From positions 1 through 39,685 of IMG/VR virus record IMGVR_UViG_3300048818_000095: DNA of 39,685 nt; one strand, given 5' to 3'. The notes under the pieces are model-generated. The model did no database searches. It was not told where the DNA came from and worked only from the letters and a program-made list of their open reading frames with translations. Within the stretch, counting starts at the first letter, position 1. Each line of letters begins with the position of its first letter. The DNA comes from a virus. The translations under genes and the position numbers were made by a program. Shown in pieces: positions 6,772-38,583 of the stretch.

Positions 6772-8550
6772 ATGGCCGATCCCACTCAAGACACGCTCAG
6801 TCCCGAAGACGCGCAGGCGCTGGTGCACACCCAGCAGCAGCTCTATGCGTCCGGAGATCCGCGCGCCACGAAGCTTTACAACTTCATCGTCGCATCGGGA
6901 TACGCCGATAAGGACGCCCAGGGCGGACTCGTTCCAAAAGGTTCACAGCCCACGGCTCCGGGCTGGAGCGTCGGGTCCGTCCTCAGCGGTACCGATCCAG
7001 CGCACCAGGCGTTTGATCGGGCCGCGCAGACCGTGCCAGTCGACACCTCGAGCGCAGGAGGCTTCGCGAAGACAGTCGGCCAGGACCTCGGCGCCGGCGC
7101 GACGCGCCTGTTTTCTCCCGTGGTGCATCCCGCCAATACGGTCGCTGGACTCGCTACAACCGGGCGCGCAGCCCTCGGCGACGTAGGTGCTCAGCACGAT
7201 CTTGCCGAGTCGATGGTGCGCCCGTTCGTCCAGAACCCCTCGGGCGAGGCCGTGGCCGCCCTGCCACAGGCCGCGCTGGCGCTTGCGGGCGGCGGCGAAG
7301 AACCGGCTGCTCAGAACGCGATCGAACGCGCCACCCCTCCAGGAGGAGTGGCCGGCGCGACTGCAGCCGAATCGCGCACCGCACTGGCGAAGCTTGTCCC
7401 CTCCCTGGTCGACGGACCGCCCCAGGACCTCATGACCCGGGCGGTAAAACCCGGGAAGAACAACATCGGATGGAACCAGGACATTCAGACCGCGATGCCG
7501 CTGATGAAGTCAGCGGAGCAGACGCTCGGGAAGCCCGTCGGCGGCGTCGACGACGCGATCGCAGCCAACACCGCGGCAAAAAAGGCCGTCTGGACCCAGG
7601 TCCAGGCGCGCCTCAACACCGCCGGAGAGATGGGCGCGACCATCGACGGCAACCCGATCGCCGACGCCATGATCAACAGCATTGACGCGCGCACGGCCTT
7701 ACAAAACCCAAGCCGGCTCGAGAGCGTGAAGGCTACCGCTGACACCTATCGTCGCCCCATGTCCGTCGACGACGCCGAGGACTTCCTGCAGTCGGCCAAT
7801 AAAGATTTAAATAACTACTATGCTAAAAACAAGGTCGGCCAGCAGGTTGCGCAGAATGACCCGGAGATTTCATCCACTGTCGCCGAAGCGGGTGCGCTTC
7901 GCGACGCGCTCTATAGCAAGTTGGACGAGGTCGCCGGGCCGGGCGCAGCGCAGCTCAAACAAGCCTATGGCGCCCTGTCCAACGTGCAAAAGGAGCTCTA
8001 TGGCCGCCAGCTCGTCGCCGCGCGTCAGCAGCCAGAGAGCCTGAGCGAGCAGATGGGCGCGGTCCGAGGCGCCGGAAACATGGCCAAGGGCGCATTCCAG
8101 ACGCTGACGGGCAATGTCCTCGAGGGACCGGCAAACATTGTGGGAGGCGCGCAGAATATCGCAATCGCACGCCTCCTTAAGTCTCGCAACTCATCTGATG
8201 CCATGATCGCGCGTGCTTTTAAGGCCACCGAGCCAGCGCCGCCCTTCGCCCCGCCTCAGGGCCCCCAGATCGCGGGCCTACTTCCGCGGGGAGCCATCCA
8301 GACCCCTCCGCCGGCGCAGGGGACCTCGCCACTCTCTGCGCCGCCCCCGATCGCTGCAACGACTCGCGCGCAGCGTCTGGGCCTTCTGCTTCCACAGCAG
8401 GCTGGTGGGCGCGTGCCTCTTCCTTACACCCCTGGAATGAGCAGCGGCGAGCAGATGGTCTCATTGATGCATTTGCTGCGCAATCAGCGGGCGCCGATCG
8501 CGCTGCCGGCTAGGACTTCGGCGATACCGCTTCCTCCGCCCGCTCCTTAG
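6772..8550 (+). CDS. Ejection / internal virion protein (P22 gp16 position)
   Basis: This 592-residue protein starts four bases after the previous stop. It has an N-terminal helical acidic section, an Ala/Gly-rich middle, a charged helical region (about 225-430) and a Pro/Ala-rich C-terminal tail with repeated Pro-Pro steps. It stands third in the ejection set, where P22 encodes gp16, the protein that acts at the inner membrane. No peptidoglycan-cleaving motif was found. Its last 41 bases overlap the 3' end of a minus-strand gene, tail to tail, which shows that the minus-strand insert abuts it closely. Confidence 0.6.
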   Translation: MADPTQDTLSPEDAQALVHTQQQLYASGDPRATKLYNFIVASGYADKDAQGGLVPKGSQPTAPGWSVGSVLSGTDPAHQAFDRAAQTVPVDTSSAGGFAKTVGQDLGAGATRLFSPVVHPANTVAGLATTGRAALGDVGAQHDLAESMVRPFVQNPSGEAVAALPQAALALAGGGEEPAAQNAIERATPPGGVAGATAAESRTALAKLVPSLVDGPPQDLMTRAVKPGKNNIGWNQDIQTAMPLMKSAEQTLGKPVGGVDDAIAANTAAKKAVWTQVQARLNTAGEMGATIDGNPIADAMINSIDARTALQNPSRLESVKATADTYRRPMSVDDAEDFLQSANKDLNNYYAKNKVGQQVAQNDPEISSTVAEAGALRDALYSKLDEVAGPGAAQLKQAYGALSNVQKELYGRQLVAARQQPESLSEQMGAVRGAGNMAKGAFQTLTGNVLEGPANIVGGAQNIAIARLLKSRNSSDAMIARAFKATEPAPPFAPPQGPQIAGLLPRGAIQTPPPAQGTSPLSAPPPIAATTRAQRLGLLLPQQAGGRVPLPYTPGMSSGEQMVSLMHLLRNQRAPIALPARTSAIPLPPPAP

Positions 8551-8776
8551 CGACCAGGTGGACGATCAAGAGGAATGGGTTGCACAGCATGACCAGCCTG
8601 ACGAGCGTGCGCAGCGGATGTTCGACGACGAACGCCAGACCGTGCCCGACCAGCTTCGACAGGTTGACCGCTATGCGGAAGGTCACCTGAAGCACCGCAA
8701 AAATCCAAGGCAAAACGGCGAAGAACAGCAGAAGCCCGATGCCGCCAAGAATGACCCCGCCTGCAATTGTCAGCAT
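8510..8776 (-). CDS. Small membrane protein of a minus-strand insert
   Basis: The 88-residue product starts with a long hydrophobic run (residues 2-34, room for one long or two short helices), then an amphipathic section, then a third hydrophobic stretch near LVMLCNPFLLIVHLV, and a charged C-terminus. It lies three bases downstream of the exported-protein gene on the same strand, so the two form one operon against the direction of all other genes. Its C-terminus overlaps the end of the ejection gene. No family recognised. Such reverse-strand pairs in virion modules are often independently expressed cargo, for example superinfection-exclusion proteins, but that role is inference. Confidence 0.62.
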   Translation of the reverse strand: MLTIAGGVILGGIGLLLFFAVLPWIFAVLQVTFRIAVNLSKLVGHGLAFVVEHPLRTLVRLVMLCNPFLLIVHLVAKERAEEAVSPKS

Positions 8777-8779
8777 GGC

Positions 8780-9151
8780 TCAGTTCCCCCCGATCGCTTC
8801 AGCGTGCATGATCGTGAATTTGTGCTTTTTGCTCCTGCTGTCGAGGACAACGAATGCTCCGCCGTCCTGGTAGAAGTTAACGGTCCCGTTGACTGAGAGA
8901 ACGACTAGATGGCGCCCGTTTCCCATTTCCGCCCACGTAAGGCGCTGAGTGGCTGTTTCGACGACCACGGTATTGGAGCGGCGCACAATCGGCACGCCAA
9001 CCATCATCGCGCCGATAGGCATCACAGCGGTCCCGCCGTTGTATGAGTCGATGTTCTGCGAGATGACCTTCGCGGTCTGAAGTGGCGGGTGCTCAGCGAG
9101 GGCAGGAAGCGCAAGAGAAAGCGCCAGGGCGCATAAAACAGCACTTTTCAT
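8780..9151 (-). CDS. Exported protein of a minus-strand insert
   Basis: With the start at 9151 the 123-residue product begins with a textbook Sec signal (MKSAVLCALALSLALPALA, cleavage before EHPP). The alternative ATG at 9175 would add eight residues before the signal and is less likely. The mature part is beta-rich (VVVETATQRLTWAEMGNGRHLVVLSVNGTV is the central pattern, given here in outline). It has no cysteine after the signal peptide. I do not recognise a family. Its 5' end is 41 bases from the oppositely facing tailspike start, so any promoter lies in or beyond the spike gene's first codons. A periplasmic or surface role during infection or lysogeny is plausible. Confidence 0.65.
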   Translation of the reverse strand: MKSAVLCALALSLALPALAEHPPLQTAKVISQNIDSYNGGTAVMPIGAMMVGVPIVRRSNTVVVETATQRLTWAEMGNGRHLVVLSVNGTVNFYQDGGAFVVLDSRSKKHKFTIMHAEAIGGN

Positions 9152-9192: not shown

Positions 9193-11877
9193 ATGACCCA
9201 AGTGGTATTACGAGCGCGGTTACTCGCCTTTTTGCTGCTCTTTGCCGGCGTCGCCGCGGCGCAGACCGTGGCGCCGACTCCTAGAAGTCACCAGAACTTT
9301 GTCGACCAGAGCGGGAACGCCTGCGCGGGATGCTCGCTTTATTCATACATTGCCGGGACGACTACTCCCGTCGCCACTTTCACCGATTACACCGGCGGCA
9401 CGCAGAACACGAACCCGATCATCCTCGACTCGGCCGGCGGCGCCAACATCTGGCTCTCGACGCAGAGCTATAAATTCATCCTCTGCGAAGGCCCGACCGT
9501 GAACTGCCTGACCGCCGGCGGAACGATGCAGTGGACCGTCGACCAGGTCCCGGGGAACACGGTCGGGAGCATCGTCCTGCAGCCGGCGCAGATCACAGCC
9601 AGCACGACAAACTATCAGATCCTCACCAGCATCAACGGAGTCAGCGTGTGGGCTGCTCCGCAAACCACGAGCACGCTGCAGCTGGCGAGGAACTTCCAAT
9701 CGATCGCCGGCGCGATCGCGAACCCGATGCTGGCCACAGCTCCGCGGGTCGGCAACGTCTGCATAGCTCCAGCCGATTCGTTCTCGAGCTACCACTGGAC
9801 GCCCTACGCCATGCGATGGATGGGGCAGACGTGGGGCAACGCAGGCCCTGGATGGACGAACACGGCGGCATACGGATCCTCGAGCTACTCCGGGAACGGA
9901 GTGACCAGCGCGGTCACAGGTACCTGGGTGGGAATCGATGGAAACTCGGGCGGATCCCCCGTCGGCCCTGATCTGACCGCATCTCAATCGAGCACGCTGG
10001 CCTCGGCGATCGTATGGACCTTTTCGCCGAACCCCTCCTTTTCCTCCGACAATCCTTATCAGCAGCCGGCGAACGCATCGTACTCGGCGGTTTCGGAAGT
10101 CGACCTCTACTGGTGGGGACAGAGCGGGGGCGGATCATTCACGTACACGGACGCCGGCGGCGGTCCGCATACCATCAATACATCGGGCTTTACAGGCTTG
10201 CAAGTCACCCCGATCACAGGATTCACTCCGAGCTCAGTCAACACAGAGACAGTGACCGTGACCGTGGCCGGAACCACCGGCGTGATCATCTTCGGTACCA
10301 ATGGCATCCGCGGAACGGTTGGATTTCGCCTCCACGACTTAGCTCACTCGGGAAGCGCTTCATCCGGATGGGCAGCGGCCAACGCCGCGACCATGGAGGC
10401 TGGATGGACCGCGCTCGGCTGCACAACGTTTGTGAACTTCCTCGGCGAGAACGATGCGGCTGCAGGAAACACAGCGGCGCAGTTCCTGGCATACACGCAG
10501 ACAAATGTGTCGAGAGAACTGGTCGCGAATCCGCAGGCCGACATCATCTTCGTGACCGCTCCCGATAACGGCGAAGGCAATGCGAGCACTCTGCAGGCCT
10601 ACAAGAATGCGCTCCAGCCCTGGGCCGCGGCCAACGGATATCCGCTGCTCGATTTGTTCGATATGTGGGGAGCGTACGCAGGGGCGGGAGGCACCAACGC
10701 CCTCGGATACTGGCTGATCAATAATCACCCCAACCCGACCGGAGACAAGATCCTCGCCGACCAGGTCGACAGTCTTCTGGGATACGGGCTTCTGTCTTAC
10801 GGCGAAGCGATCCCAGCCCTCACTCCAAGCGCTTCCTGGTTGCCGTTGAACATCTGGGGCACGGCGAACCTCTCGAATTCTCTCGCGGCAACACCCATGC
10901 AATGCACCACAGTGAACCAATTCGAAACAGGAAGCGCTGCGAACGGGAACGCAAATTGCGGAACCCCCGTCAATCCGACGGGAACTGCCTTCAAAAACGC
11001 CGTCCCTGATTCGAGCGTGAAGTGGGGAAGCGCGTATTGGACCCTAATCACGCCTGGCGACGGCTTCGCAGCCTTCTCAGTGGCGAATGATGTGGGGTAT
11101 GCGAAAACCAATGCTCTCGCGATCAGCTCGACGTATTCAGCGCAAGCCAAGTGGGCGACCAGCGCGCAGTTCAGTCTGATCTGCGGACAGAACTACGAGT
11201 TCAGCGGCTATATCGACGCGACCAACGCAACCATTGCGAACGTCTCGTGGAGCGTGCAAAACACCAGCCGAACGACAACCTATGCCACGCTCACCGAGAC
11301 GCCCGGAAGCAAAGGGTGGCTGTCGAGCGCATTCACTTTCAGCCCTTCCGCCTGCACTCCAGGCGTGGGCTACCTGGTCGAGCTTCTGGCGGCGACCAAC
11401 AGCGCCACGATCGCGGGCGGGAAGAGTCTCTACTTCTCCGCGCCCATGCTGAACATCGGATCGACGCCGACAGCCTACACGGAAAACGTGGGCGACGACG
11501 ACACCGGCTATCTGCTTCCCGGCGCAGTAACAGATTCGGGAGTTGCGACATTTGCAGCGGGAGCTGGAGCGGGTAGCAGCCCAGGCGCACTTTCTTGTGT
11601 CACCTCTTGCAACTCTACAAGTGGACGGATAGAACTCGCGTCTGTGGGAACGGGGCCGCCCACCAGCGGGACTGTTATCACAATCACTCTTCCGATAACC
11701 CGGGCAGTTTCGCTCAGCTGCGTCTGCTCCCCGCTCATCGATGAAAATACCGGCGCGAACGGTGTTTTTGTCGACTGCGGGTCCTCCTCATTGGCGGCGT
11801 TCAAAATAAATCTGCTAGGCACCGCCCTGACCGCCGGGCACCAGTATCAGTCGAATTATGTGTGCGGAGGAAAATGA
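9193..11877 (+). CDS. Tailspike with head-binding-like N-terminus and SGNH hydrolase domain
   Basis: The 894-residue product sits where P22 encodes its gp9 spike. Residues 1-23 look like a Sec signal (LLAFLLLFAGVAAA, cleavage before Q24), which is odd for a virion protein. Residues 30-115 resemble the P22 spike head-binding domain, with a YIAGTTTPVATFTDY strand pattern, NPIILDSAGGA and a WLS.QSYKF end. From about 185 an SGNH/GDSL-type hydrolase follows: Asp195-Ser196 as the nucleophile block, Gly418-Glu-Asn-Asp421 as block III, and His512 in NNHPNPTG as block V. The Asp usually three residues before that His is replaced. The C-terminal 300 residues are beta-rich with six or more Cys. Expected role: deacetylating or trimming a host surface glycan. 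Confidence 0.75.
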   Translation: MTQVVLRARLLAFLLLFAGVAAAQTVAPTPRSHQNFVDQSGNACAGCSLYSYIAGTTTPVATFTDYTGGTQNTNPIILDSAGGANIWLSTQSYKFILCEGPTVNCLTAGGTMQWTVDQVPGNTVGSIVLQPAQITASTTNYQILTSINGVSVWAAPQTTSTLQLARNFQSIAGAIANPMLATAPRVGNVCIAPADSFSSYHWTPYAMRWMGQTWGNAGPGWTNTAAYGSSSYSGNGVTSAVTGTWVGIDGNSGGSPVGPDLTASQSSTLASAIVWTFSPNPSFSSDNPYQQPANASYSAVSEVDLYWWGQSGGGSFTYTDAGGGPHTINTSGFTGLQVTPITGFTPSSVNTETVTVTVAGTTGVIIFGTNGIRGTVGFRLHDLAHSGSASSGWAAANAATMEAGWTALGCTTFVNFLGENDAAAGNTAAQFLAYTQTNVSRELVANPQADIIFVTAPDNGEGNASTLQAYKNALQPWAAANGYPLLDLFDMWGAYAGAGGTNALGYWLINNHPNPTGDKILADQVDSLLGYGLLSYGEAIPALTPSASWLPLNIWGTANLSNSLAATPMQCTTVNQFETGSAANGNANCGTPVNPTGTAFKNAVPDSSVKWGSAYWTLITPGDGFAAFSVANDVGYAKTNALAISSTYSAQAKWATSAQFSLICGQNYEFSGYIDATNATIANVSWSVQNTSRTTTYATLTETPGSKGWLSSAFTFSPSACTPGVGYLVELLAATNSATIAGGKSLYFSAPMLNIGSTPTAYTENVGDDDTGYLLPGAVTDSGVATFAAGAGAGSSPGALSCVTSCNSTSGRIELASVGTGPPTSGTVITITLPITRAVSLSCVCSPLIDENTGANGVFVDCGSSSLAAFKINLLGTALTAGHQYQSNYVCGGK

Positions 11878-11915: not shown

Positions 11916-12665
11916 ATGAAACGTTTTGCTCTTGCGCTTCTCGCGCTTTTGGCGCTGACGGCATCAAGCGCGTCTGCAGCTACCGTCACGATCACGAGCG
12001 CGCTCACCGCAACAGCGACCGTGGGGACAGCTTTCAGCTATCAAATTGCTGTGAGCGGAACCGCGACCGGCTATGCGGCGACCGGACTTCCAACAGGCCT
12101 TATATACACTGCCGCGACGGGTCTGATTGCCGGGACGCCAACAACTTCAGGCACCTACAATGTTGTTCTCGCTGCCACCCTCTCGGGCGGGGGATTCACG
12201 CGCTCAACGATGGTCCTAACGGTCAATCCAGCAGGGGGAGGGCCTGCGCCGCCACCGCCGGCGACCACCTTGTTTTGCGCGACGGACACGAATCCTGCTT
12301 GCGGTGTGGTGCTCGCTTGGAGCGCAGCGCCAGCACCAAACCCAGCGATTCCGGCAACTGCAACCGCGCCAGCAGTACCAGCGCAAACGGTCGCGACGGG
12401 CTATTTGGTATTCAGGGGGATTCAGAGCGGGGCAGCACCAGCGCAGATCACCGCGGCAGCGCTACCCGTAACCCAGCTCACCTATACAGACAAGACAATT
12501 GCCCCGTCGACGACCTACGTCTACTATGTCGTCTCGGTCGACAGCGCGGGAGGCCAGAGCACGCCCAGCAACACCTTGTCGGTGGTTGTAGCTGCGGCGC
12601 CTTCAGTGCCCACGCCGCCCACGCCGCCAGCCCCGGCCAATCTGACCGGCTCGGTGGTCAACTGA
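11916..12665 (+). CDS. Secreted Ig-like / fibronectin type III protein
   Basis: Start chosen at ATG 11916 because AAAGGAG lies five bases upstream and the product then begins with a clean signal peptide (MKRFALALLALLALTASSASA). An upstream GTG would add 18 poor residues. Residues about 30-105 match a putative Ig domain of the He_PIG type (YAATGLPTGL, then GLIAGTPTTSGTYNV). After a Pro/Gly linker and a Cys-containing segment, residues about 165-235 look like a fibronectin type III domain ending in YYVVSVDSAGGQSTPSN. The 249-residue protein follows the spike and its stop overlaps the next gene. Likely a surface adhesin or spike partner; attachment to virions is not shown. Confidence 0.72.
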   Translation: MKRFALALLALLALTASSASAATVTITSALTATATVGTAFSYQIAVSGTATGYAATGLPTGLIYTAATGLIAGTPTTSGTYNVVLAATLSGGGFTRSTMVLTVNPAGGGPAPPPPATTLFCATDTNPACGVVLAWSAAPAPNPAIPATATAPAVPAQTVATGYLVFRGIQSGAAPAQITAAALPVTQLTYTDKTIAPSTTYVYYVVSVDSAGGQSTPSNTLSVVVAAAPSVPTPPTPPAPANLTGSVVN

Positions 12666-15299: not shown

Positions 15300-15338
15300 A
15301 CGACGAAGGCCGGGGCTTTATGCTCCGGCCTTCGTCGT
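15300..15338. terminator. Strong 17-bp hairpin, terminator-like
   Basis: 15300-15316 pairs with 15322-15338 over 17 positions with one G-T wobble and a five-base loop (TTTAT). No T run follows on the + strand, but on the minus strand the stem is followed by a T-rich stretch (TTTGCCTTTTGATT). It may stop transcription from either side of the integration region or insulate it. It follows the hydrolase gene by 48 bases. Confidence 0.6.
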
Positions 15339-15339
15339 G

Positions 15340-15441
15340 TCTGTGCGTAACCTTCCTGAGTGCCTTTAGGGACTCTCCGAAGAGACGTGGTCTGTGCGTA
15401 ACCTTCCTGAGTGCCTTTAGGGACTCTCCGAAGAGACGTGG
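15340..15441. repeat. Perfect 51-bp tandem repeat upstream of integrase
   Basis: Two identical 51-base units, 15340-15390 and 15391-15441, stand head to tail. Each contains CTGAGTGCCTTTAG (15356 and 15407) and a small inverted repeat TCTC-CGAA-GAGA. A relative of the first motif, CTGAGTGCGTTCAG with 12 of 14 bases matching, lies at 16366 between the integrase and the tRNA fragment. This distribution on both sides of the integrase suits arm-type recombinase binding sites. The repeat unit is a multiple of three, so a false reading frame runs through it. Confidence 0.75.
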
Positions 15442-15543
15442 AAAGGGAACGATTTGCATGTTAAAACGGGATTCGCAGGTATTTTCCTTTCACGCGCACC
15501 TACCCCAAAGGTCGTAGATTCGGATATTTAGAGTAATGCTACC

Positions 15544-19644: not shown

Positions 19645-19941
19645 ATGCCGAAAGTTCAAGGCAAGTACGTCATCGTCCGGACCTATTCCGCAGGAGTTTT
19701 TGCGGGACATCTGGTCAGACGCGTCGAAAAAGAAGTGACGCTGACCGACGCGCGCAGGCTCTGGTACTGGGCTGGCGCCGCTTCACTATCGCAGCTCGCT
19801 GTCTCAGGGACCTCGAAACCCAAAGACTGCAAATTCCCCGTGGCTGTGCCGTCAGTCACGCTCACTGAAGCCATTGAAATTCTCGATGTAACTCCGGAAG
19901 CGGAGACCTCAATCAAGGCAGTTCCGGAATGGCGAAGCTGA
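19645..19941 (+). CDS. Conserved 98-residue phage protein (DUF6948-like)
   Basis: The product reads KYVIVRTYSAGVFAG ... ARRLWYWAGAASLSQLA ... SKPKDCKFP ... LTEAIEIL, a strongly conserved pattern I recall as DUF6948, found in phages and bacteria without a known role. AAAGGA precedes the ATG by eight bases. The 3' end overlaps the start of the Gly-rich gene by 13 bases. I recall the same pairing with Gly/Tyr-rich genes elsewhere, which would imply a shared function, but cannot check it here. Confidence 0.65.
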   Translation: MPKVQGKYVIVRTYSAGVFAGHLVRRVEKEVTLTDARRLWYWAGAASLSQLAVSGTSKPKDCKFPVAVPSVTLTEAIEILDVTPEAETSIKAVPEWRS

Positions 19942-20363
19942 AAATCGGCTACGGCTACGGCTCCGGCTCCGGCGACGGCGACGGCTACGGCTACGGCTCC
20001 GGCTACGGCTCCGGCGACGGCTCCGGCTACGGCTACGGCTCCGGCTACGGCTACGGCTACGGCTACGGCTCCGGCTCCGGCGACGGCGACGGCTCCGGCT
20101 CCGGCTACGGCTCCGGCTACGGCTCCGGCGACGGCGACGGCTACGGCTCCGGCGACGGCTCCGGCTACGGCTACGGCTACGGCTCCGGCTACGGCTACGG
20201 CTACGGCTACGGCTCCGGCTCCGGCTACGGCTCCGGCGACGGCGACGGCTACGGCTCCGGCGACGGCTCCGGCTACGGCTCCGGCGACGGCTCCGGCTAC
20301 GGCTACGGCTACGGCTCCGGCTACGGCTCCGGCTACGGCTCCGGCTACGGCTCCGGCAAGTAA
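19929..20363 (+). CDS. Gly-X repeat protein (X = Tyr, Ser or Asp)
   Basis: After MAKLKI the protein is 68 consecutive Gly-X pairs and ends GK. X is Tyr 30 times, Ser 26 and Asp 12. Every Gly codon is GGC, Tyr TAC, Ser TCC and Asp GAC. Asp is never preceded by a Tyr pair; each Asp run follows a Ser pair. The composition resembles Gly/Tyr/Ser-rich low-complexity domains that form condensates or gels, such as FUS-type sequences. The ATG is inside the end of the previous gene, so translation is coupled. No enzyme or binding motif exists. The opposite strand shows a false Arg-Ser frame. Confidence 0.75.
   Translation: MAKLKIGYGYGSGSGDGDGYGYGSGYGSGDGSGYGYGSGYGYGYGYGSGSGDGDGSGSGYGSGYGSGDGDGYGSGDGSGYGYGYGSGYGYGYGYGSGSGYGSGDGDGYGSGDGSGYGSGDGSGYGYGYGSGYGSGYGSGYGSGK
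19947..20354. repeat. 68 tandem hexanucleotide units GGC-NNC
   Basis: The 408 bases consist only of GGCTAC, GGCTCC and GGCGAC units. Longer blocks recur: the unit order S-Y-S-D-D-Y-S-D-S-Y appears twice, 18 units (108 bases) apart, and Y-Y-S-Y-Y-Y-Y-S-S appears twice, 24 units (144 bases) apart. This suggests growth by block duplication and likely length variation between relatives. Confidence 0.9.
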
Positions 20364-23210: not shown

Positions 23211-23759
23211 ATGCCAACAGGACTAAAGCTGCAGTGGACCGAGGAAGAGGACCGGGAATTGAGACGCATTTATGCCATGTCGAGAGCTGGTCAGTCCTCT
23301 GCGGCGCTGCGCAAGCTGGCCGACCGGAAGGGCGTCAAGCTGGAACGCTGCCGCAATCGCGCCGCGACACTCGGGCTCTCGCGCGTGGCCGGGCGTCATC
23401 GCCGCTGGACGACGGTGGAGGATGAAAATCTCGAAGCCTATGCGGGGCGGCTTCCGGTGCGGAAGATTGCACGGATCCTCGCCCGCACGGATGAGGCAAT
23501 CATCAACCGGCTGCATCTGCGCAAGCTTTCGGGGCGCGTCAAGGATCGCGGCTACATGCGGACCGAGCTCGCCGAGTGCCTCGGTCTGGATATTGACACC
23601 CTGCGGGCGCTGCTGAAGCGCTTCCCGCTCGAAGCCAACCTTCTCGGGAACTTCGCCGAGGCCGATTTACAACTCTGGGTCTGGGACCATCTCGAAGACC
23701 TCGAGCTCAGGAAATGCAATCAGGCATGGCTGAAGGCCATGCTACGGAGGCCAGCGTGA
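23211..23759 (+). CDS. Myb/SANT-like DNA-binding protein
   Basis: The 182-residue product has two SANT-like segments: QWTEEEDRELRRIYAM near the N-terminus and RRWTTVEDENLEAYAGRLPVRKIARIL in the middle (given in outline), each with the Trp and acidic pattern of the fold. A further helical domain follows, with RTELAECLGLDIDTLRALLKR resembling an HTH. It likely binds DNA, perhaps as an early regulator. The start ATG at 23211 is chosen over 23207 because the 23207 frame is poor. The TGA overlaps the next GTG. Confidence 0.58.
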   Translation: MPTGLKLQWTEEEDRELRRIYAMSRAGQSSAALRKLADRKGVKLERCRNRAATLGLSRVAGRHRRWTTVEDENLEAYAGRLPVRKIARILARTDEAIINRLHLRKLSGRVKDRGYMRTELAECLGLDIDTLRALLKRFPLEANLLGNFAEADLQLWVWDHLEDLELRKCNQAWLKAMLRRPA

Positions 23760-24541
23760 GCGAAACCCGGTTTCCACCCTCGGGCACCAAATGCAAGGAC
23801 TGCGGCTGCTGCCTGGCCACGGTTTACGCGGGCAACGACGCGCTCTGCTGGGAATGCGACGAGGGCGAGCCCTGTAAAGGGAAGCAGCTCGCGCCAGCCC
23901 GCGCCGCCGAAACACCTGGCCGCGCAACCATCACCCTCGTTTTCGACGAACGGGAACTCGATGATTACTGGGACTCGCTGGCGCTTGAGCAGAAGGCCTA
24001 CCTGATCCAGCTGCAACCAGTGCCGCGCCCTACGATCCAGACCAGTGCCGCGCCCCTGCCACATTACGTGCGCCAGAAGTCCCACTCGAGGGTGGCGATC
24101 GCCGAGAGCGTGAAAGCTGCCTGCATCGCCGACCGTGCCGCCGGAATCCGGCCCCGGGACATCGCCCAGACCCGGAATGTCGGGTACTCAACCGTGGTCA
24201 AGATCCTGCGCGACGCCCCAAAACCAGTCTTGACCTCCGATCCAGCGTCGCCTGCTCCGGTCCTGGATGGGATAAGTCCCGCGGCGGCCAGTGAGCAGGA
24301 CAGGACGCCGCGGGCAGAAATGCCCCAGGAGGCGCCCGTGCCAACCAAGCCGATGATTCCCTCCACCCCGGAGCCAGCGCCGCAAGCGGCCCCGGAAAGC
24401 GGCCCAGCCATTCCACCTGGCCGCGCAACCCTCGTTTTCGACGAACGGGAACTCGATGATTACTGGGACTCGCTGGCGCTTGAGCAGAAGGCTTACCTGA
24501 TCCAGCTGCAGCTCGGCGTCGATCTGCGCGGAGGAGCCTGA
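23756..24541 (+). CDS. Zinc-ribbon/HTH protein with an internal 97-bp duplication
   Basis: GTG start overlaps the upstream stop, with GGAGG five bases before it; 261 residues. The N-terminus has CKDCGCC and CWECDEGEPC, a probable zinc ribbon. An HTH follows (RPRDIAQTRNVGYSTVVKIL, near residue 125-145). The segment LVFDERELDDYWDSLALEQK occurs twice, near residues 62 and 227, and the DNA is almost identical (see the two repeats). Between the copies lies a Pro/Ala-rich linker. The role is unknown; a DNA-binding regulator is likely. Confidence 0.6.
   Translation: MSETRFPPSGTKCKDCGCCLATVYAGNDALCWECDEGEPCKGKQLAPARAAETPGRATITLVFDERELDDYWDSLALEQKAYLIQLQPVPRPTIQTSAAPLPHYVRQKSHSRVAIAESVKAACIADRAAGIRPRDIAQTRNVGYSTVVKILRDAPKPVLTSDPASPAPVLDGISPAAASEQDRTPRAEMPQEAPVPTKPMIPSTPEPAPQAAPESGPAIPPGRATLVFDERELDDYWDSLALEQKAYLIQLQLGVDLRGGA
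23913..24015. repeat. Direct repeat, copy 1 (103 bp)
   Basis: Matches 24414-24510 with one substitution and a six-base insertion (ATCACC, 23930-23935). Starts CACCTGGCCGCGCAACC and ends CAGCTGCA. In frame within the zinc-ribbon/HTH gene. Confidence 0.9.
24414..24510. repeat. Direct repeat, copy 2 (97 bp)
   Basis: Second copy of the repeat at 23913-24015, about 500 bases downstream and in the same reading frame. The near-identity at silent sites shows that the duplication is recent or kept alike by recombination. Confidence 0.9.
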
Positions 24542-31303: not shown

Positions 31304-31714
31304 ATGGCTAACGCAACAGCAGGGGGAGCGCAGGCAATTCCCCACCAGGGCGCATTCGATGCGAGCGCAATCAAGGATATTCAGGACACGACCTGCAACG
31401 GCGCGTTCACGGTGCTGAGTGGAGCAGCGGACCAGGTGCCGTTCCCGGGAAATGTTGAGGTGAACACCGCCGGCGTCGACGCGATGCTCCTGAATCAACC
31501 CATCGCCGGGCCGCAACCCCTTGGCGACGACGGCAAGAGCATCTTGATTATCAGCAACACCGCCAACGCGCACACCATAACCTGCGCAGCGAACGGGATC
31601 ATCAACGCAAAGCATTTGCTTACCTTTGCCGCCAACAAAGGCAGCGCCATTGAGCTCATCGCCATGGCCGGCCTCTGGGTTCCGACACTGAATGTTGGTA
31701 TCACGGTCAGCTAA
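31304..31714 (+). CDS. Putative virion decoration-type protein
   Basis: CGAGGAG lies upstream. The 136-residue product is beta-rich, with two Cys and a smooth hydrophobic pattern (SILIISNTANAHTITC, LLTFAANKGSAIELIAMAG). It has no signal peptide. It is the first gene after the regulatory stretch and directly upstream of the GroES-portal string, so a capsid surface protein is plausible. Family not recognised. Confidence 0.52.
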   Translation: MANATAGGAQAIPHQGAFDASAIKDIQDTTCNGAFTVLSGAADQVPFPGNVEVNTAGVDAMLLNQPIAGPQPLGDDGKSILIISNTANAHTITCAANGIINAKHLLTFAANKGSAIELIAMAGLWVPTLNVGITVS

Positions 31715-31918: not shown

Positions 31919-32270
31919 CCTGCAGCCCCTTCACGACCGCATCCTGGTCAAAATACTTCCAGATGCGCCGAGTGCCACGATCATCATCCCGGGCATCGCC
32001 GAAGAGCGATCGCACCGCGGCGTGGTCGTGGCAGCCGGCCCGGGAGTGCGTGACAAGAAGGGCAAGCGGCGGCCTCTGGATGTCCAGCCCGGCGATGAGA
32101 TTCGTTTCTCGCTCCACGACCTGGAGGACGGCGAGTACACCCTGATCCGTCAGGGAGACGTGTTCGGGTTCGTGAAGCTTCCCCGCCCTTACTGTCCTTA
32201 TCGAGAAGAAGTCGATGTCGACTTCCAATGCGATTGCGTGGGGACCTGTAAGCGAGTCGACGACATCTGA
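31905..32270 (+). CDS. groES-like: GroES-like cochaperonin with Cys-rich tail
   Basis: The first 92 residues match Cpn10: LQPLHDRILVK at 6-16, a mobile loop with the hydrophobic tripeptide III (26-28) that docks on GroEL, RGVVVAAGPG, RPLDVQPGDEIRF and GDVFGFV at the end. The C-terminal 25 residues are an extension with four Cys (97, 109, 111, 115), not found in GroES, perhaps for metal binding. Phage Cpn10 proteins such as T4 gp31 replace host GroES to fold the coat. Its place beside the portal gene supports head assembly. The stop overlaps the portal start. Confidence 0.85.
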   Translation: MNLANLQPLHDRILVKILPDAPSATIIIPGIAEERSHRGVVVAAGPGVRDKKGKRRPLDVQPGDEIRFSLHDLEDGEYTLIRQGDVFGFVKLPRPYCPYREEVDVDFQCDCVGTCKRVDDI

Positions 32271-34420
32271 TGGCCGAGAAGACCGAAGACGAGAAAAAGG
32301 TCGACACGCGAGCATTCCTCGCCAAGGCCCACGCACGCTTCAAGCTCTGCGCCGACGCAGAGGCCGAGAACCGCAAGAAAGCCCTCGAGGATCTGAAGTT
32401 CGCGAAGCTCTCCGAGCAGTGGCCGGCCGACATTCAGACCCAACGCTCTGCAGACGGGACGCCCTGCCTCACGCTGAATCAGCTCGGGAAATTCATCCGC
32501 CAGGTGTGCAACGAACAGCGCCAGCAGCGCCCGGCAATTCAAGTCAATCCGGTCGGCGATGGAGCCGACAAGGAAACGGCCCAAGTCATTCAGGGCATGA
32601 TCCGGCACATCGAGGTCAACTCCGAGGCCGAGATCGCCGACGATGTCGCTTTCGACTTTGCCGTGACGACGGGTGGCCCGGGCTGGATCCGCGCGGTCAC
32701 TGAATACGCGGACGATGATACCGAGGATCAGGAGATCTTTCTTCGGCCGGTTTCGAACTCCTTCACCGTCTACATCGACCCCCGCGCAGAGAAGCCTAAC
32801 CGGGAAGACGCGAAATTCCTCTTCGTCATCGAAGACATGCCGGTCGAGGGCTTCAAAGACGAGTATCCCGACTCCGGGCTCGCCAGCCTGAGCGACTTTC
32901 AAAGCATCGGCGACGCGCCGCCGCAATGGCTCACCAAAGAGACGATCCGGGTCGCCGAGTACTTCTGGTGCGAGGAGAAAAAGCAGAAGCAAGAGGGAAA
33001 GAAGCGCGAGAAGATCGTCCGCACGTGGCACTGGTCGAAGATCACCGCGATCGACATCCTTGACGAGCGGGACCTCAAAGGCAAATACCACCCCTTTTTC
33101 CCGGTTTACGCCGAGGAAACCAACGTCAACGGGAAACGCCACTACAAGGGCCTGGTGCGCGACGCCATGGACCCGCAGCGCCAGTACAACTATCACGCCT
33201 CCGCGGCGACCGAGGCCATCGGGATCGGGACCAAAGCCCCCTGGCTGATCGCTGACGACCAGGTCGAGGGCTTCGAAGATTCGTGGAAGCAGGCGAACGT
33301 TCGCAAACTCGCATTCCTGAAGTACCACTATGTTCAGGGCGCTGACCCTCCCACGCGCAACTCAGCCGAGCCACCGATCCAGGCGATGATGCTGATGGTT
33401 CATCAGGCTGGCGAAGACCTGATGAGCTCGACCGGGCTCTACAACCCAAGCCTGGGCAAGCAGCAGAGCCCCGACGAGAGCGGAAAAGCGATCCTTGCGC
33501 AGCAGCAGCAGGGCGACATCGCCACGCTCAACTATAGTGACAATCTGAAGCGGACAAAGAAGCAGATCGGGAAGTATCTGATCGACCAGATCCCGCACGT
33601 TTACGACGCGCCGCGGATCCAGCGCATCATCAAGCCCGACGAGACGATCCAGCACGTTGGCGTGTTCAACTCCGCAACGACCAAGATGTCTCCGGACGAG
33701 GCAAAGGACTCGCTCGAGGATGAGGCGATCGAGAAGGTCTTCGATATCGGCGTCGGCCGCTATGACGTCGTCGTCGACATCGGCCCCACCTATCAGACCA
33801 AGCGCAAGGAAGCCTCGGCGACCCAGCTCGAACTGATGAAGGAAGTTCCCATCGTTCAGCAGGCAGCGCCGGATCTGATCATCCGCAACATGGACATTCC
33901 GGGCGCCGATGCGATCGCGGACCGGGTCAAGATGATGCTGCCACCGCAGCTGCTGCAGGCCGAGGGTAATGACCCCCAGGCAACGGTCCAGAAGCTTCAG
34001 TCTCAACTCGGGACGCTCACTCAGCAGCATCAGGCCGCGGCGCAGCTCATCCAGCAGCAGCAGCAAACGATCCAAGGCAAGCAGGTCGAGACGCAGGGCA
34101 AGATCACCGTTGCGCAGATTGAAGCAGGCCTCAAGCAGCGCATGTTCCAGATGGAGCAGGAGGCGAAGATCGTCATCGCGCAGATTGAAGCAAAGACTCA
34201 AAACGCCGAGCAGCGGGCTACGGAAACCATGCAGGTCTGGGCAGAGTTGCACGGCTCGGCCCATGACATGGCGATGAGCCAGCAGCAGCACCAGCAGGCG
34301 CTCGAGCAGGGCCAGCAGCAGGCCGTGAATCAGAGTCAGCAATCCAGCCAGGACGCGGACCAGTCGATGGCGCAACAGGCGGCGCAGCCGCAACCGGAAC
34401 CGACAGGAGCAGCACAATGA
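32270..34420 (+). CDS. Portal protein (P22 gp1-like)
   Basis: The 716-residue product matches P22 gp1 in length (725) and in motif order: a helical N-terminus, PCLTLNQLGKFIRQV, a central WHWSKITAIDIL region, the ring-core segment YNYHASAATEAIGIG followed by KAPWLIADDQVEG, then QQQGDIATLNYSDNLKRTK. A long Gln-rich coiled tail (about residues 575-716) may form the barrel that extends into the capsid. The portal is the DNA channel at one vertex and contacts terminase and gp4. ATG overlaps the upstream TGA; the stop overlaps the next ATG. Confidence 0.88.
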   Translation: MAEKTEDEKKVDTRAFLAKAHARFKLCADAEAENRKKALEDLKFAKLSEQWPADIQTQRSADGTPCLTLNQLGKFIRQVCNEQRQQRPAIQVNPVGDGADKETAQVIQGMIRHIEVNSEAEIADDVAFDFAVTTGGPGWIRAVTEYADDDTEDQEIFLRPVSNSFTVYIDPRAEKPNREDAKFLFVIEDMPVEGFKDEYPDSGLASLSDFQSIGDAPPQWLTKETIRVAEYFWCEEKKQKQEGKKREKIVRTWHWSKITAIDILDERDLKGKYHPFFPVYAEETNVNGKRHYKGLVRDAMDPQRQYNYHASAATEAIGIGTKAPWLIADDQVEGFEDSWKQANVRKLAFLKYHYVQGADPPTRNSAEPPIQAMMLMVHQAGEDLMSSTGLYNPSLGKQQSPDESGKAILAQQQQGDIATLNYSDNLKRTKKQIGKYLIDQIPHVYDAPRIQRIIKPDETIQHVGVFNSATTKMSPDEAKDSLEDEAIEKVFDIGVGRYDVVVDIGPTYQTKRKEASATQLELMKEVPIVQQAAPDLIIRNMDIPGADAIADRVKMMLPPQLLQAEGNDPQATVQKLQSQLGTLTQQHQAAAQLIQQQQQTIQGKQVETQGKITVAQIEAGLKQRMFQMEQEAKIVIAQIEAKTQNAEQRATETMQVWAELHGSAHDMAMSQQQHQQALEQGQQQAVNQSQQSSQDADQSMAQQAAQPQPEPTGAAQ

Positions 34421-35487
34421 CGAAACCGACCATCTCGCAACTCGAGGAACTCCTCGATCGTTCGGAGAATAGCTGGGATCGCGACGAACAGGAGATCGAG
34501 ATCCTCCCGAACGGCGAGATCCGCGCCAAGGGCGGCGGCGCTGCAGAGGGCGTGAAACCGCTCACCTTCCGCGAGAACCTGGGCGGCGAGTACGGCCTCA
34601 GAAAGGCTGCAAAGTTAGCATTTGCTGCATTGCTGATCTTTGCAGCATCGATCTGTGCTCATGCGCAGCAGTCCGACATCAGCCTCGGGCCAGCCTATCT
34701 GACCGCAGCCTGCACCAATGCGAACACGACCTGCGACACGGCCAACGTTCCGACATTCGGGCCCAATGGCTCAGTGCTCGGGCCGGCGACGCTCGAGGGC
34801 TCGACACAGGGCTACGGCCTGGTCGAGATCACCGTCAACGGCGTCTCGAACGCAGTCGGCTCGACCATCCTCTTCGAGTTCTCGGATGATGGCGGAACGT
34901 CCTGGTACACGAATACCTGCACGCGATCGGACGCCGCGATCCAGGAGATCAGCGAAGCGGTTCCAACTACGACCTATCGGGCCTGGGATTGCGCGGTGGG
35001 CGCAGCGACCAGGTTCCGGGTGCGCCAGTCGGCCATCAGCTCAGGGCAACTCGTCATCCGGGCGACGCTTACCGCGGGCCTCGAGGAGCCGGCGCCCACG
35101 GTCCAGCTCAGCCTGTCTGGCTCGAGCGGCAGCAATCCCTGCTGGAACCCGCACGCGAATCTGCAGTTCCTGTCCTTCAACACGTCAGGGACGTCTGCCA
35201 CGCAGATCATCGCCGCCAGCGGTACCACGAAGATTTATGTTTGCTCGTTCCTGCTCGTTCCCACCAGCGGAACGACGCCCACCTTCGGGCTGGTTACCGG
35301 CACGGGCACAAACTGCGCCGGCGGGCAGACTGTCTTAGTCCCGGCGTTCGCGACAACGACCGCTGGGGCCCTGTTTAACGCAACGACCAATCCAGTTGCA
35401 CTCACGCCCGCCGGCGGCGCGGTCTGCTATCTCGATGGCGGAACCACCCCTGTGCAGGCGGTCATTCTGACTTACGTCCAGCAATAA
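34417..35487 (+). CDS. Fusion: short phage domain, signal-like helix, Cys-rich domain
   Basis: The 356-residue frame has two unlike parts. Residues 1-58 (TISQLEELLDRSENSW, IEILPNGEIRAKG, LTFRENLGGEYG) look like a complete small phage protein that usually ends there. Residues 61-83 then read as a Sec signal (LRKAAKLAFAALLIFAA ... AHA, cleavage before QQ). The rest is a beta-rich domain with nine or more Cys (TAACTNANTTC, TNTCTRS, NPCWNP, VCYLD). There is no start codon before the signal-like part, though AGAAAGG lies at 34600. The C-terminal domain is built for an oxidising compartment. It lies between portal and scaffold. Confidence 0.6.
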   Translation: MTKPTISQLEELLDRSENSWDRDEQEIEILPNGEIRAKGGGAAEGVKPLTFRENLGGEYGLRKAAKLAFAALLIFAASICAHAQQSDISLGPAYLTAACTNANTTCDTANVPTFGPNGSVLGPATLEGSTQGYGLVEITVNGVSNAVGSTILFEFSDDGGTSWYTNTCTRSDAAIQEISEAVPTTTYRAWDCAVGAATRFRVRQSAISSGQLVIRATLTAGLEEPAPTVQLSLSGSSGSNPCWNPHANLQFLSFNTSGTSATQIIAASGTTKIYVCSFLLVPTSGTTPTFGLVTGTGTNCAGGQTVLVPAFATTTAGALFNATTNPVALTPAGGAVCYLDGGTTPVQAVILTYVQQ

Positions 35488-35541
35488 CTGATTCAGAAGT
35501 CATTGACTCTCGAATCACGATCCCAATGGAGAGAAAATTCC

Positions 35542-36444
35542 ATGCCTGACAAAGTAGTGACCCTCGCCTCGACGACGTCCTCCCAAGCGGAACTTGAACA
35601 TGCGGCCAGTGAAAACTGGCGCACTCCCTATGTTCCGCCCACGGAAGAGACGCCTGCAGGCACCGAGTCTTCGAACCCCGAAGGCAAAAGCGCGACCGAG
35701 TCGGAAACGGTTCCAGCAGAGCAGAAAACGGAGAAGAAGACAGACCCCACTCCCGAGTCCAAAAACGGATGGCAAAAGCGCGTGGATCGCCTCACGGCGC
35801 GCAACAAATCGATCGAAACCGAGAACGCCACACTCAGAGCTCAGCTTGACGAAGTAAAACGCAGCCCGGCAGCGCCCAAGCAAGACCCCGCCGCCCCTGC
35901 CCCCAAGCCAGCTCCGACTGCAGGACCCAAGCTCGCGGATTTCGCCACTGCTGAAGAATGGGCCGACGCCCGGGCAGACTGGCAGCGAACCCAAGAGCGT
36001 CAGCGTGAGGAATCGACCAACACAGACAAGGAAATCCGTCAGACCTGGGATGCGCACAACAGCCGAATCTCCGAGGCTCGCGCCAAGTACGACGACTTCG
36101 ATGAGGTCGCGCAGACGTTTGGGAATATCGAAATCCCCCAGAGCGCTGCAATGGCCATCATCGAACAGCCGAACTCAGCCGACGTCGCCTATTACCTCGC
36201 CACCCACCAGGAAGAAGCCAAGAAGCTCGCAGGTCTGCGACCCATGCAGCAGATCGCCGCGATCGTCAAGATTTCCGACAAGGTGGCTGCGCCGGTGATC
36301 CCTGCTCCTGCAAAACCGAAGCCCGCATCGCAAGCCCCCGCGCCCATCAAGCCGGTCGGCGGCGCTGCCACTGGATCAACGACCGACCTCGGCTCGATGT
36401 CCTATCAGGATTACAAAAAGGCTCGAACCAACGGCCATCATTGA
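35542..36444 (+). CDS. Scaffolding protein (P22 gp8-like)
   Basis: Start at ATG 35542 with GGAGAG eight bases upstream. The 300-residue product equals P22 gp8 in length (303). It is acidic and Pro/Ala/Lys-rich at the N-terminus, has a coiled-coil (RLTARNKSIETENATLRAQL) at about 90-110 and a helical C-terminus. It has low sequence conservation, so the call rests on its place between portal and coat and on composition. It would guide procapsid assembly and then leave. Confidence 0.75.
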   Translation: MPDKVVTLASTTSSQAELEHAASENWRTPYVPPTEETPAGTESSNPEGKSATESETVPAEQKTEKKTDPTPESKNGWQKRVDRLTARNKSIETENATLRAQLDEVKRSPAAPKQDPAAPAPKPAPTAGPKLADFATAEEWADARADWQRTQERQREESTNTDKEIRQTWDAHNSRISEARAKYDDFDEVAQTFGNIEIPQSAAMAIIEQPNSADVAYYLATHQEEAKKLAGLRPMQQIAAIVKISDKVAAPVIPAPAKPKPASQAPAPIKPVGGAATGSTTDLGSMSYQDYKKARTNGHH

Positions 36445-36463
36445 TCGGCTCTAGGAGACGACC

Positions 36464-37681
36464 TTGAACACACTACTCACCATTTCGATGATCACGCGGG
36501 AAGCCCTGATGGTCCTCGAAAACAATCTCACCTTCACGAAGTACGTGCGTCGCGACTTCGACGATGAGTTCGGGCGCTCCGGAGCAAAAATCGGACTGGT
36601 CCTGAACATCCGCAAACCACCGAGATATGTAGGCCGCGTCGGTCAAGCGCTGCAGCTTGAAGACGCGACCGAGACGAGCGTCCCCCTGGTGTTGAATGTC
36701 CAGCGCGGCGTCGATATCGTCTTCAGCTCACAGGATCTCGCGCTTTCGATCGACGACTTCAGCAAACGGTTCATCGAGCCAGCGATCGCAAACGTGGCCA
36801 ACGGCATCGATTTCGATGGCCTGACGCAGTATCTGAACGTCTACAACGAAATCGGCGTCCCGGGCACGGTTCCGAACCAGCTCCTGAACTATCTCCAGGC
36901 CGGGCAGCGCCTCGATGAGGAAGCAGCACCGCGGGATAAGGAACGCTCGCTCGTTGTTTCCCCGGCCATGCAGGCGACCATCGTCGACGCACTGAAGGGC
37001 CTCTTCCAGGATGGCGAGGAGATCGCGAAGCAGAACGAGAACGGCACCATGGGCCGCACCATCGGGTTTAAGTGGTCGATGGATCAGAACGTCCGCACCC
37101 AGACGGTGGGCGTCTATGCGGGCGTGGTCGGAACCGTCAACGCGGCAAATCAATCGGGCTCTTCGATCACCACAGCCGGCTGGACGGGATCGATTCAGAT
37201 CCTGAACCAGGGCGACGTGATTTCGTTCCCGGGCTGCTACGCTGTCAACCCCCAGAACAAGCAGTCGACCGGAGCGCTTCGCCAGTTCGTTGTCATGGCG
37301 AACGTGGTCTCAGCCGGCGGCGGTACTGCAACCATTCCGATTTCCGGTCCCGGTGGCCTCGGCATCGTGCTCGCTGGTCCTTTCCAGACCTGCACGGCGT
37401 CGCCGACCAACGGCTCAGCGGTCAACATTCAGGGCGCCTCGGGCGTTTCTTCGCCCCGTGGTCTCGCCTTCCACAAGGATGCCTTCGCCTTCGCCTGCGC
37501 GGATCTTCCGCTCCCCGGTGGCGTCGACATCGCTGACCGCGCCAATGACAAACAGTTGGGCTGCTCGATTCGCCTCGTGCGCGCCTATGACATCAACTCC
37601 GACCGCTTCCCCACCCGTCTCGACATCCTTTACGGCTGGACAACGCTCTATCCCGAGCTTGCCTGCCGTATAGCTTCGTAA
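36464..37681 (+). CDS. Major coat protein (P22 gp5-like)
   Basis: TTG start with AGGAGACG upstream. The 405-residue product (P22 gp5 is 430) has the family start: ITREALMVLENNLTFTKYV, VRRDFDDEF and GLVLNIRKPPRYV, then a repeated Asp/Phe pattern and a late LPLPGGVDIADRANDKQ. The HK97-type coat forms the icosahedral shell. It follows the scaffold gene with a 19-base gap. This is one of the surest calls in the window. Confidence 0.86.
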   Translation: MNTLLTISMITREALMVLENNLTFTKYVRRDFDDEFGRSGAKIGLVLNIRKPPRYVGRVGQALQLEDATETSVPLVLNVQRGVDIVFSSQDLALSIDDFSKRFIEPAIANVANGIDFDGLTQYLNVYNEIGVPGTVPNQLLNYLQAGQRLDEEAAPRDKERSLVVSPAMQATIVDALKGLFQDGEEIAKQNENGTMGRTIGFKWSMDQNVRTQTVGVYAGVVGTVNAANQSGSSITTAGWTGSIQILNQGDVISFPGCYAVNPQNKQSTGALRQFVVMANVVSAGGGTATIPISGPGGLGIVLAGPFQTCTASPTNGSAVNIQGASGVSSPRGLAFHKDAFAFACADLPLPGGVDIADRANDKQLGCSIRLVRAYDINSDRFPTRLDILYGWTTLYPELACRIAS

Positions 37682-37737
37682 GGCGTACTCAGACCGAGGG
37701 AACTCAAACCACACGAGGAAAGGGAAACGAGACGACA

Positions 37738-38583
37738 ATGAAAAAGATTCTTCTAGGTATCGCGATTCTCTTCGGGCTGTGCGGGATGGCTTCTGCCCAA
37801 ACAGCCCTGACGCAAACCACGCTGGCTGCAGCGATCACCGTCGGCCCTGCCGGCGGTGCTTCAGGCATCACCGGCTCTTATTCGACGCAGCTGAGCCTCA
37901 CGTCGGCCACCGGCATCCAGGTGGCTAACAACGGGCAGCCGATCACGTTCGTGTATATCGACCAGGAACTCTTCGGTGTGCTCACCCTGGTACCCGGGCA
38001 GACCACGATTTACAACGTGCTGCGCGCGCAGCTGGGTACGCGAGCTGCAGCCCACTCACTTGGTGCGATGGCGCTGATCGAGGTGGTTTCTCCGCAATTC
38101 GGCGGATATTCCGGCTCGGGCGGTTTCCAGCAAACCGACCCTCCTGGGGGCTTGGGAGCCGGTTGCACGGCGACCAACACGCTGGTTTATCCATGGGTCA
38201 ATGTTCTGACCGGCGCTCAGTGGCTGTGCTCCGTGCAATCGAGCACGTGGACGGCGGGATTTAATAACCCGCTGCTCACTGTGACCGCCATCCAGAATGG
38301 CCCTCTTTCTGCGGCTGCCGCTGGTGCGCAGGCTGTTCCAAGTACGATCTTCAGCCTGTCTGGAACAAATGCGATCACATCCTTTACCTTGCCAGTGGGG
38401 TGCGGAGCGCAAACCCCCGTCGCAACCTCCACGGCGGGAACCTGCGTGTTTGGTATTATCCCGACCGCCGCGTATACGACAACGGCGACAAACAACATCG
38501 CCAGCGCAAGCACGGCGGTTATCGGGCACATCCAATGGTGGACCTACAACCCGGTCACGCAGAAGTTCGCGTCGTCCTATTAG
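37738..38583 (+). CDS. Secreted or head-associated beta-rich protein
   Basis: The 281-residue product begins with a clean Sec signal (MKKILLGIAILFGLCGMASA, cleavage before QTAL). The first mature domain (TTLAAAITVG, LTSATGIQVANNGQ, YNVLRAQLGTRAAAHSLGA) resembles a module I have seen in phage head or tail decoration proteins. A second domain has five Cys (GAGCTATNTL, WLCSV, VGCGAQ, GTCVFG) and ends WWTYNPVTQKF. A signal peptide directly after the coat gene is unexpected: the protein would leave the cytoplasm where heads assemble. AGGAAAGGG lies upstream. Confidence 0.65.
   Translation: MKKILLGIAILFGLCGMASAQTALTQTTLAAAITVGPAGGASGITGSYSTQLSLTSATGIQVANNGQPITFVYIDQELFGVLTLVPGQTTIYNVLRAQLGTRAAAHSLGAMALIEVVSPQFGGYSGSGGFQQTDPPGGLGAGCTATNTLVYPWVNVLTGAQWLCSVQSSTWTAGFNNPLLTVTAIQNGPLSAAAAGAQAVPSTIFSLSGTNAITSFTLPVGCGAQTPVATSTAGTCVFGIIPTAAYTTTATNNIASASTAVIGHIQWWTYNPVTQKFASSY

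Follow-up and report, generated by a model that had tools for sequence, protein, structure and literature searches.

Why should a tailed phage equip proteins of its virion modules with export signals? The question is raised by IMG/VR virus record IMGVR_UViG_3300048818_000095, a complete record of 39,685 bases (analysed over its whole length and referred to here as the window), in which the tail spike gene, the gene directly 3' of the coat gene and several others are predicted to encode Sec signal peptides. Genes are named below by the first position of their coordinates. Tailed-phage assembly is regarded as cytoplasmic. Here, the export of virion-module proteins is strongly supported at the level of sequence, because signals have been gained in front of conserved attachment domains, cysteines have been gained and occur in even numbers, the cleavage sites (A/Q, the slash marking the predicted cut) are host-like, and the pattern recurs in cultured and integrated phages of Acidobacteriota.

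Profile searches of the window found a P22-type portal and coat, a scaffold (phrog_8865), head-closure (phrog_578) and DNA-ejection (phrog_598) genes, and a predicted endolysin. The gp4-type tail accessory gene is matched across relatives, and the virion gene order is that of the relatives. The contig ends (1-203 and 39483-39685) lie within this gp4-type gene and share an overlap of 203 bases with 92.6% identity. The overlap points to a circularly permuted genome, closed across strain variation, and not to a linear fragment; because of it the window is probably both near-complete and circularly permuted. It represents the near-complete genome of a P22-like podovirus, most likely with an Acidobacteriota bacterium as its presumed host.

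Signal peptides in the window

All open reading frames (ORFs) of the window were scored blind, from each in-frame start, for a positive n-region, an uncharged hydrophobic core (h-region) and small residues at -3 and -1 (c-region), with a scorer that accepted all of its positive controls (OmpA, MalE, PhoA and Bla). The five proteins in which the sequence-only reading had noticed signal-like segments took ranks 1 to 5 with scores of 10.8-11.8, followed by an antisense ORF at 9.8. When only the first start of each ORF was considered, four ORFs reached at least 10.5; shuffles of the first 60 residues per ORF would give 0.13. Blind ranking, shuffle null and conservation together rule out chance hydrophobic N-termini. 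Four of the five (9193, 11916, 37738 and 8780) show all the features of Sec/signal peptidase I substrates and are predicted to carry canonical N-terminal signals, while the segment in 34417 is internal. The coordinates given for the observation in that reading, 34417-38583, span just two of the five genes. None of the portal, scaffold, coat, head-closure and ejection proteins of the window has a signal. The overall signal frequency among same-strand ORFs (48/719 in viral loci versus 40/994 in genome loci) is uninformative, as phages without signals, genes of the hosts and small membrane proteins are all counted together in it.

The tail spike

The predicted 23-residue spike signal (MTQVVLRARLLAFLLLFAGVAAA/QT) is followed directly by residues 24-129, an attachment domain such as that found at the N-terminus of tail spikes in proteobacterial phages, Xanthomonas phage PBR31 among them. 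This domain is 44% identical to that of the PBR31 tail spike and 31-54% identical to the spike N-termini of 10 aligned relatives, 9 of which are signal-free; in the cultured proteobacterial phages the spike gene begins at the attachment domain and has no signal. The domain is conserved right behind the signal and the C-terminal part of the spike is variable, with a Lipase_GDSL_2 match at residues 379-519 (28.9 bits, under the Pfam cut-off of 32.9). The window yielded neither a second attachment domain nor a second spike free of a signal, and with only one such domain found the signal-bearing 9193 is the sole spike candidate.

Among 85 unique homologues, a signal precedes the attachment domain only in the window, L184 and L013 (the L013 signal, MKKWLCLFVLFTSMMAGQ, was called by eye and scores only 4.8). 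The domain contains four cysteines in the window and two each in L184 and L013, compared with none in the other 82 homologues, save two with one. As a test of prediction, viral contigs were scanned for nothing but the pattern of the CAGC cysteine codons. Five loci were returned, among them the L184 contig known beforehand, and in each of the five the spike has a strong signal that ends in A/Q or near it. In about 400 Acidobacteriota genomes the attachment domain was found four times, three times with a signal, whereas none of 10 matches in about 400 Pseudomonadota genomes has one. A P22-like prophage of Ca. Sulfopaludibacter SbA3 encodes a signal-bearing spike with a beta-helix and a coat protein 60% identical to that of the window, and its gene order (portal-scaffold-coat-gp4-head closure-ejection-spike) is the same. 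The signals are not a trait of P22-like phages in general, as the proteobacterial relatives have none on their spike and post-coat genes.

As a side observation, two Acidobacteriota chromosomes contain attachment-domain genes with signal peptides and no recognisable phage neighbours (L273:15693-18015 and L274:10584-11426); the former is followed by another signal-bearing gene.

The post-coat protein

The gene directly 3' of the coat encodes a domain with the pattern TTL-AA...VASATG...VDQE...V-RG--GT, and the window copy, 37738, has the predicted signal MKKILLGIAILFGLCGMASA/QT. Two forms of this domain occur at one site, either MKKILALLAIAFGLAGSSYA/QTALTQTTLAAA... or MAITATTLSAA.... The 35 distinct homologues divide into 18 with and 17 without a signal, and at least four cysteines are found in 16/18 of the signal-bearing proteins versus 0/17 of the signal-free ones. 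On the coat tree the signal state has changed at least 4-5 times, and L008/L009 and L034/L016 are sister pairs that differ in it. By homology, the window keeps the C-terminal domain of the signal-free form as a separate gene upstream of the portal.

The AlphaFold model of 37738 is beta-rich (predicted local distance difference test, pLDDT, 71). Its BFVD matches are mostly uncharacterised phage proteins and include several tail fibres; a fold search of the PDB gave no match below E 1e-3. A search of viral contigs with the whole post-coat alignment gave no usable result, the alignment having no conserved stretch, and the same search of Acidobacteriota genomes gave weak matches only, partial in most cases.

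Cysteines and cleavage sites

Signal-bearing proteins contain about three times as much cysteine as core virion proteins. Across 33 signal-bearing phage proteins there are 1.72 cysteines per 100 residues, versus 0.53 in the core virion proteins of these phages, and an even count is found in 27/32 signal-bearing proteins versus 92/218 core proteins. Paired cysteines in even numbers are what would be expected of disulfide-bonded exported proteins. The mature proteins of the window contain 16 (9193), 8 (34417), 4 (37738), 2 (11916) and 0 (8780) cysteines, so the cysteine-rich domains that had been attributed to three of them are rich in a relative sense only.

The predicted cleavage sites resemble the A/Q sites of the presumed host. 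Glutamine occupies +1 in 43% and 23% of predicted signals in two Acidobacteriota genomes versus 8% in Paraburkholderia (n = 23, 35 and 12), and in 38/42 of the phage signals, as aligned by hand with cleavage sites set by eye.

Recurrence in other phages

The sequence-only reading had suggested running a signal-peptide predictor on the five proteins and on homologues; the signals do recur in relatives. In L264, L266 and L267, signal-free ejection genes are followed by a signal-bearing spike and then by another large signal-bearing protein; gp4 and head closure are also signal-free where the contig covers them. In L013, L083 and L086 the post-coat protein is signal-free, yet the spike or the 34417 homologue bears a signal, and from these mixed states it follows that signals are gained and lost gene by gene. 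In Tunturi 1 and 2, cultured lytic podoviruses of Acidobacteriota, strong signals are predicted for gp14 (annotated as the tail spike), for virion structural protein gp17 and for gp12.

Two large contigs with P22-like coats each encode two signal-bearing proteins in the head region: L065 (94 kb, at 7126-9022) and L059 (81 kb, at 1349-1825 and 7669-8421).

Other features of the window

The ATG of 34417 has a strong Shine-Dalgarno sequence and overlaps the portal stop, and about 61 residues precede its hydrophobic segment, KLAFAALLIFAASICAHA/QQ (residues ~62-83). No homologue of this extension was found in any fetched locus, nor one that would make a standalone small gene its source. Homologues in L082, L083, L086 and L088 begin directly with the signal (MRKLLAFLVLFGAACLA/QQ, MKKMALFILLFSGICIA/Q and similar). 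The window gene has the appearance of a fusion confined to this contig. Its structural model is of low confidence (pLDDT 57), and fold matches were not used.

The ATG of 11916 is preceded by the Shine-Dalgarno sequence AAAGGAG, and the predicted signal is MKRFALALLALLALTASSASA/AT. The minus-strand gene 8780-9151, which had been counted as a fifth member of the set, does have a predicted signal (MKSAVLCALALSLALPALA/EH), and domain and PHROG profile searches found no family for it. It adjoins a membrane protein gene (8510-8776), also on the minus strand, and both lie between the ejection and spike genes; the two, which do not belong to the virion operon, probably form a cargo pair whose products act on the envelope. 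The profile of a Lom-like moron, a separate gene that is dispensable for the virion, would fit 8780-9151 and does not fit the spike, the window's only attachment-domain gene.

Table 1. Coordinates of features discussed in the window
Feature	Position	Strand	Evidence
Precursor of the tail spike, 894 aa, with signal peptide, N-domain of head-binding type (two additional Cys pairs) and GDSL/SGNH esterase-like domain	9193..11877	+	signal score 11.35; phrog_38670 tail fiber
Spike Sec signal peptide (predicted), cleavage AAA/QT	9193..9261	+	no counterpart in signal-free homologues, whose genes begin at the domain
Spike N-terminal virion-attachment domain	9262..9579	+	homology to relatives' spike N-termini
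Post-coat fibre/decoration-like protein, signal peptide and conserved Cys pair	37738..38583	+	signal score 10.83; phrog_1101 tail
Post-coat Sec signal peptide (predicted), cleavage ASA/QT	37738..37797	+	scan and homologue comparison
Small signal-free protein, homologous to C-terminal domain of relatives' signal-free post-coat proteins	31304..31714	+	sequence matches (L011, L016, L083)
Ig-like (He_PIG) and FN3-like protein 3' of spike, signal peptide	11916..12665	+	signal score 11.1; He_PIG E 5.5e-10
Portal-scaffold insert protein: contig-specific 60-aa extension, signal-like hydrophobic segment, beta-rich Cys-paired domains	34417..35487	+	
Signal-like segment RKAAKLAFAALLIFAASICAHA/QQ, internal in encoded 34417, N-terminal in homologues	34597..34665	+	
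Small protein with predicted export signal, cargo/moron type, mature part Cys-free	8780..9151	-	signal score 9.83
Portal, P22-like, signal-free control	32270..34420	+	P22_portal E 1.5e-151; no signal peptide
Coat protein, P22-like, signal-free control	36464..37681	+	P22_CoatProtein E 1.6e-28; no signal peptide

Elsewhere in the window, an acyl-carrier-protein-like gene and a GNAT acetyltransferase gene (3025-3731) lie within the virion operon between the head-closure and ejection genes. An open frame of 144 residues at 19929-20363 consists almost throughout of YGSG/DGSG repeats, and a stretch of about 28 residues, LVFDERELDDYWDSLALEQKAYLIQLQ, is present twice in one predicted protein (23714-24541). 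A short frame at 15320-15517 contains a tandem duplication of the 16-residue unit CVTFLSAFRDSPKRRG, and up to ~16900 the region is poorly coding in appearance.

A proposed route to the virion and its alternatives

How could an exported spike end up on a virion? In the explanation that we rate best, and towards which we lean slightly, 9193, 37738, 11916 and the 34417 family would be made as Sec precursors, translocated into the periplasm and cut by signal peptidase I at the host-like A/Q site, and disulfide bonds would stabilise the exported proteins. Heads with signal-free portal, coat, head-closure and ejection proteins would be built and filled in the cytoplasm. Lysis would then remove the inner-membrane barrier, allowing the folded and oxidised spikes and fibres to bind heads via their usual attachment domains. 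In classical work, Israel, Anderson and Levine (1967) are said to have added P22 tail parts (spikes) to heads late and in vitro; as P22 spikes are late additions that can be joined in vitro, an exported spike could meet finished heads at lysis.

Joining virions after lysis was one of three functions first proposed for these proteins, and it fits best, because it is the attachment domain of the sole spike that bears the signal and because signals are confined to add-on parts. The other two, coating of the host surface and blocking of re-adsorption, leave the attachment domain and the one-for-one replacement of signal-free homologues unexplained. Attachment after lysis, and with it presence in virions, is what we infer from this. 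The idea of a set acting together holds in part only: the signals come and go independently in each gene and 8780 is a separate cargo gene. The broader proposal is a two-compartment assembly, recurrent among Acidobacteriota phages and switched per gene by signal gain or loss, in which cytoplasmic DNA-filled heads and periplasmic, disulfide-stabilised spikes and fibres or decoration proteins would be joined at lysis; we judge it evenly balanced between right and wrong.

Several points weigh against assembly by way of the periplasm. The scorer is home-made and is not SignalP, and from its full-length start 34417 is not scored as having a signal peptide, so that an N-terminal signal is absent from the protein as encoded. 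The structural modules of Tunturi 3 and 4 have no such signals, and the trait is therefore not one of all Acidobacteriota phages. The nominal p of 1e-4 for the cysteine comparison is optimistic, since homologues are not independent. The domain cysteine pair is missing in three signal-bearing Acidobacteriota spikes (L269-L271), which rejects strict coupling of the two traits; because of these three, the signal and not the cysteine pair appears to be the primary trait of the spike. Finally, the proposed route would have a cost, in that lysis could dilute the proteins of the periplasm or lead to their loss.

The main alternative, unlikely in our view though deserving of weight, is that the signals are real and the proteins are not virion parts, being instead secreted by the infected cell or the lysogen, or placed on its surface, for example as a polysaccharide-modifying enzyme, a superinfection block or a product of Lom-like lysogenic conversion. 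Precedent exists in the gene for exported lambda Lom, which lies between those for the tail spike and the tail fibre (PMC12309495), and the sub-threshold esterase-like domain of the window spike is consistent with such a role, as is the distance of the L273 and L274 genes from recognisable phage genes. For 8780-9151, which resembles such cargo, this explanation is probably right. For the spike it has to contend with a virion-attachment domain that stays conserved right after the signal, in contrast to a variable C-terminal part, and with a window that offers no signal-free spike to take its place. Signal-bearing genes also occupy the very sites of signal-free homologues, and the lytic isolates Tunturi 1 and 2 bear signals too.

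It is rather improbable that the segments are uncleaved N-terminal hydrophobic helices with a role within virions or at the membrane, where they would be anchors for membrane-linked assembly or for penetration at infection. The internal segment of 34417, with no N-terminal signal from a start backed by a Shine-Dalgarno sequence, would suit such a helix; the small -1 residue and the glutamine at +1, kept while the remaining signal has diverged, argue for cleavage, and the gain and even parity of cysteines also speak against a helix. Slightly less probable still is a dual fate, in which only some copies of each protein are exported, to clear or mask the envelope, and those left in the cytoplasm go into virions by the usual path. 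One phage clade does use the same domains in signal-bearing and signal-free forms, but the signals are strong and highly hydrophobic, and the extra cysteine pairs are not expected to form disulfides in the cytoplasm. That the signals are functionless accidents of recombination with host secreted proteins is very improbable, for although the 34417 fusion looks accidental and post-coat signals come and go on the tree, signals of diverged sequence and conserved features are shared by several unrelated protein families and phage groups.

Comparison with known systems

In the open-access literature we found no description of signal peptides on tailed-phage virion proteins, nor of an export-dependent assembly route in tailed phages, although the export of filamentous virion proteins is already known. 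In one published survey, the fact that phage-encoded diversified proteins have no signal peptides is taken to support their phage origin (PMC6199706). If export and late joining are correct, virion completion would be an event at lysis, oxidative folding would be open to phage adhesins, annotation rules that discard signal-bearing genes as non-phage would be mistaken, and soil proteins that look secreted may belong to virions.

Among the closest known systems are Tunturi 1 and 2, cultured phages of Tunturiibacter (PMC11924767), which are likewise Acidobacteriota podoviruses with signals on gp14, gp17 and gp12; unlike the window, they have 63-kb genomes and a spike with no PHROG or Pfam match. 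A text search of the paper describing them found no mention of signal peptides. As cultured phages, they make the idea of an exported spike testable now.

Lambda Lom is likewise an exported protein encoded within the tail region (PMC12309495). It is not a virion part, whereas in the window it is attachment-domain proteins that bear the signals; the role of 8780-9151 may resemble that of Lom. The pIII and pVIII proteins of filamentous phages are, like the candidates here, virion proteins with type I signal sequences and Sec export (PMC4823517). Filamentous virions, however, assemble at the membrane without lysis, while the window encodes a tailed double-stranded DNA phage with cytoplasmic heads and a predicted endolysin. 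The P22-like tailspikes (P22 gp9 and that of PBR31) share with 9193 the gene position after the ejection genes, the N-terminal attachment domain and the variable enzymatic C-terminal part. The known P22-like spikes examined begin at the domain, with no signal and almost no cysteines in it, in contrast to spikes of the window type, which have a predicted Sec signal and, mostly, cysteine pairs.

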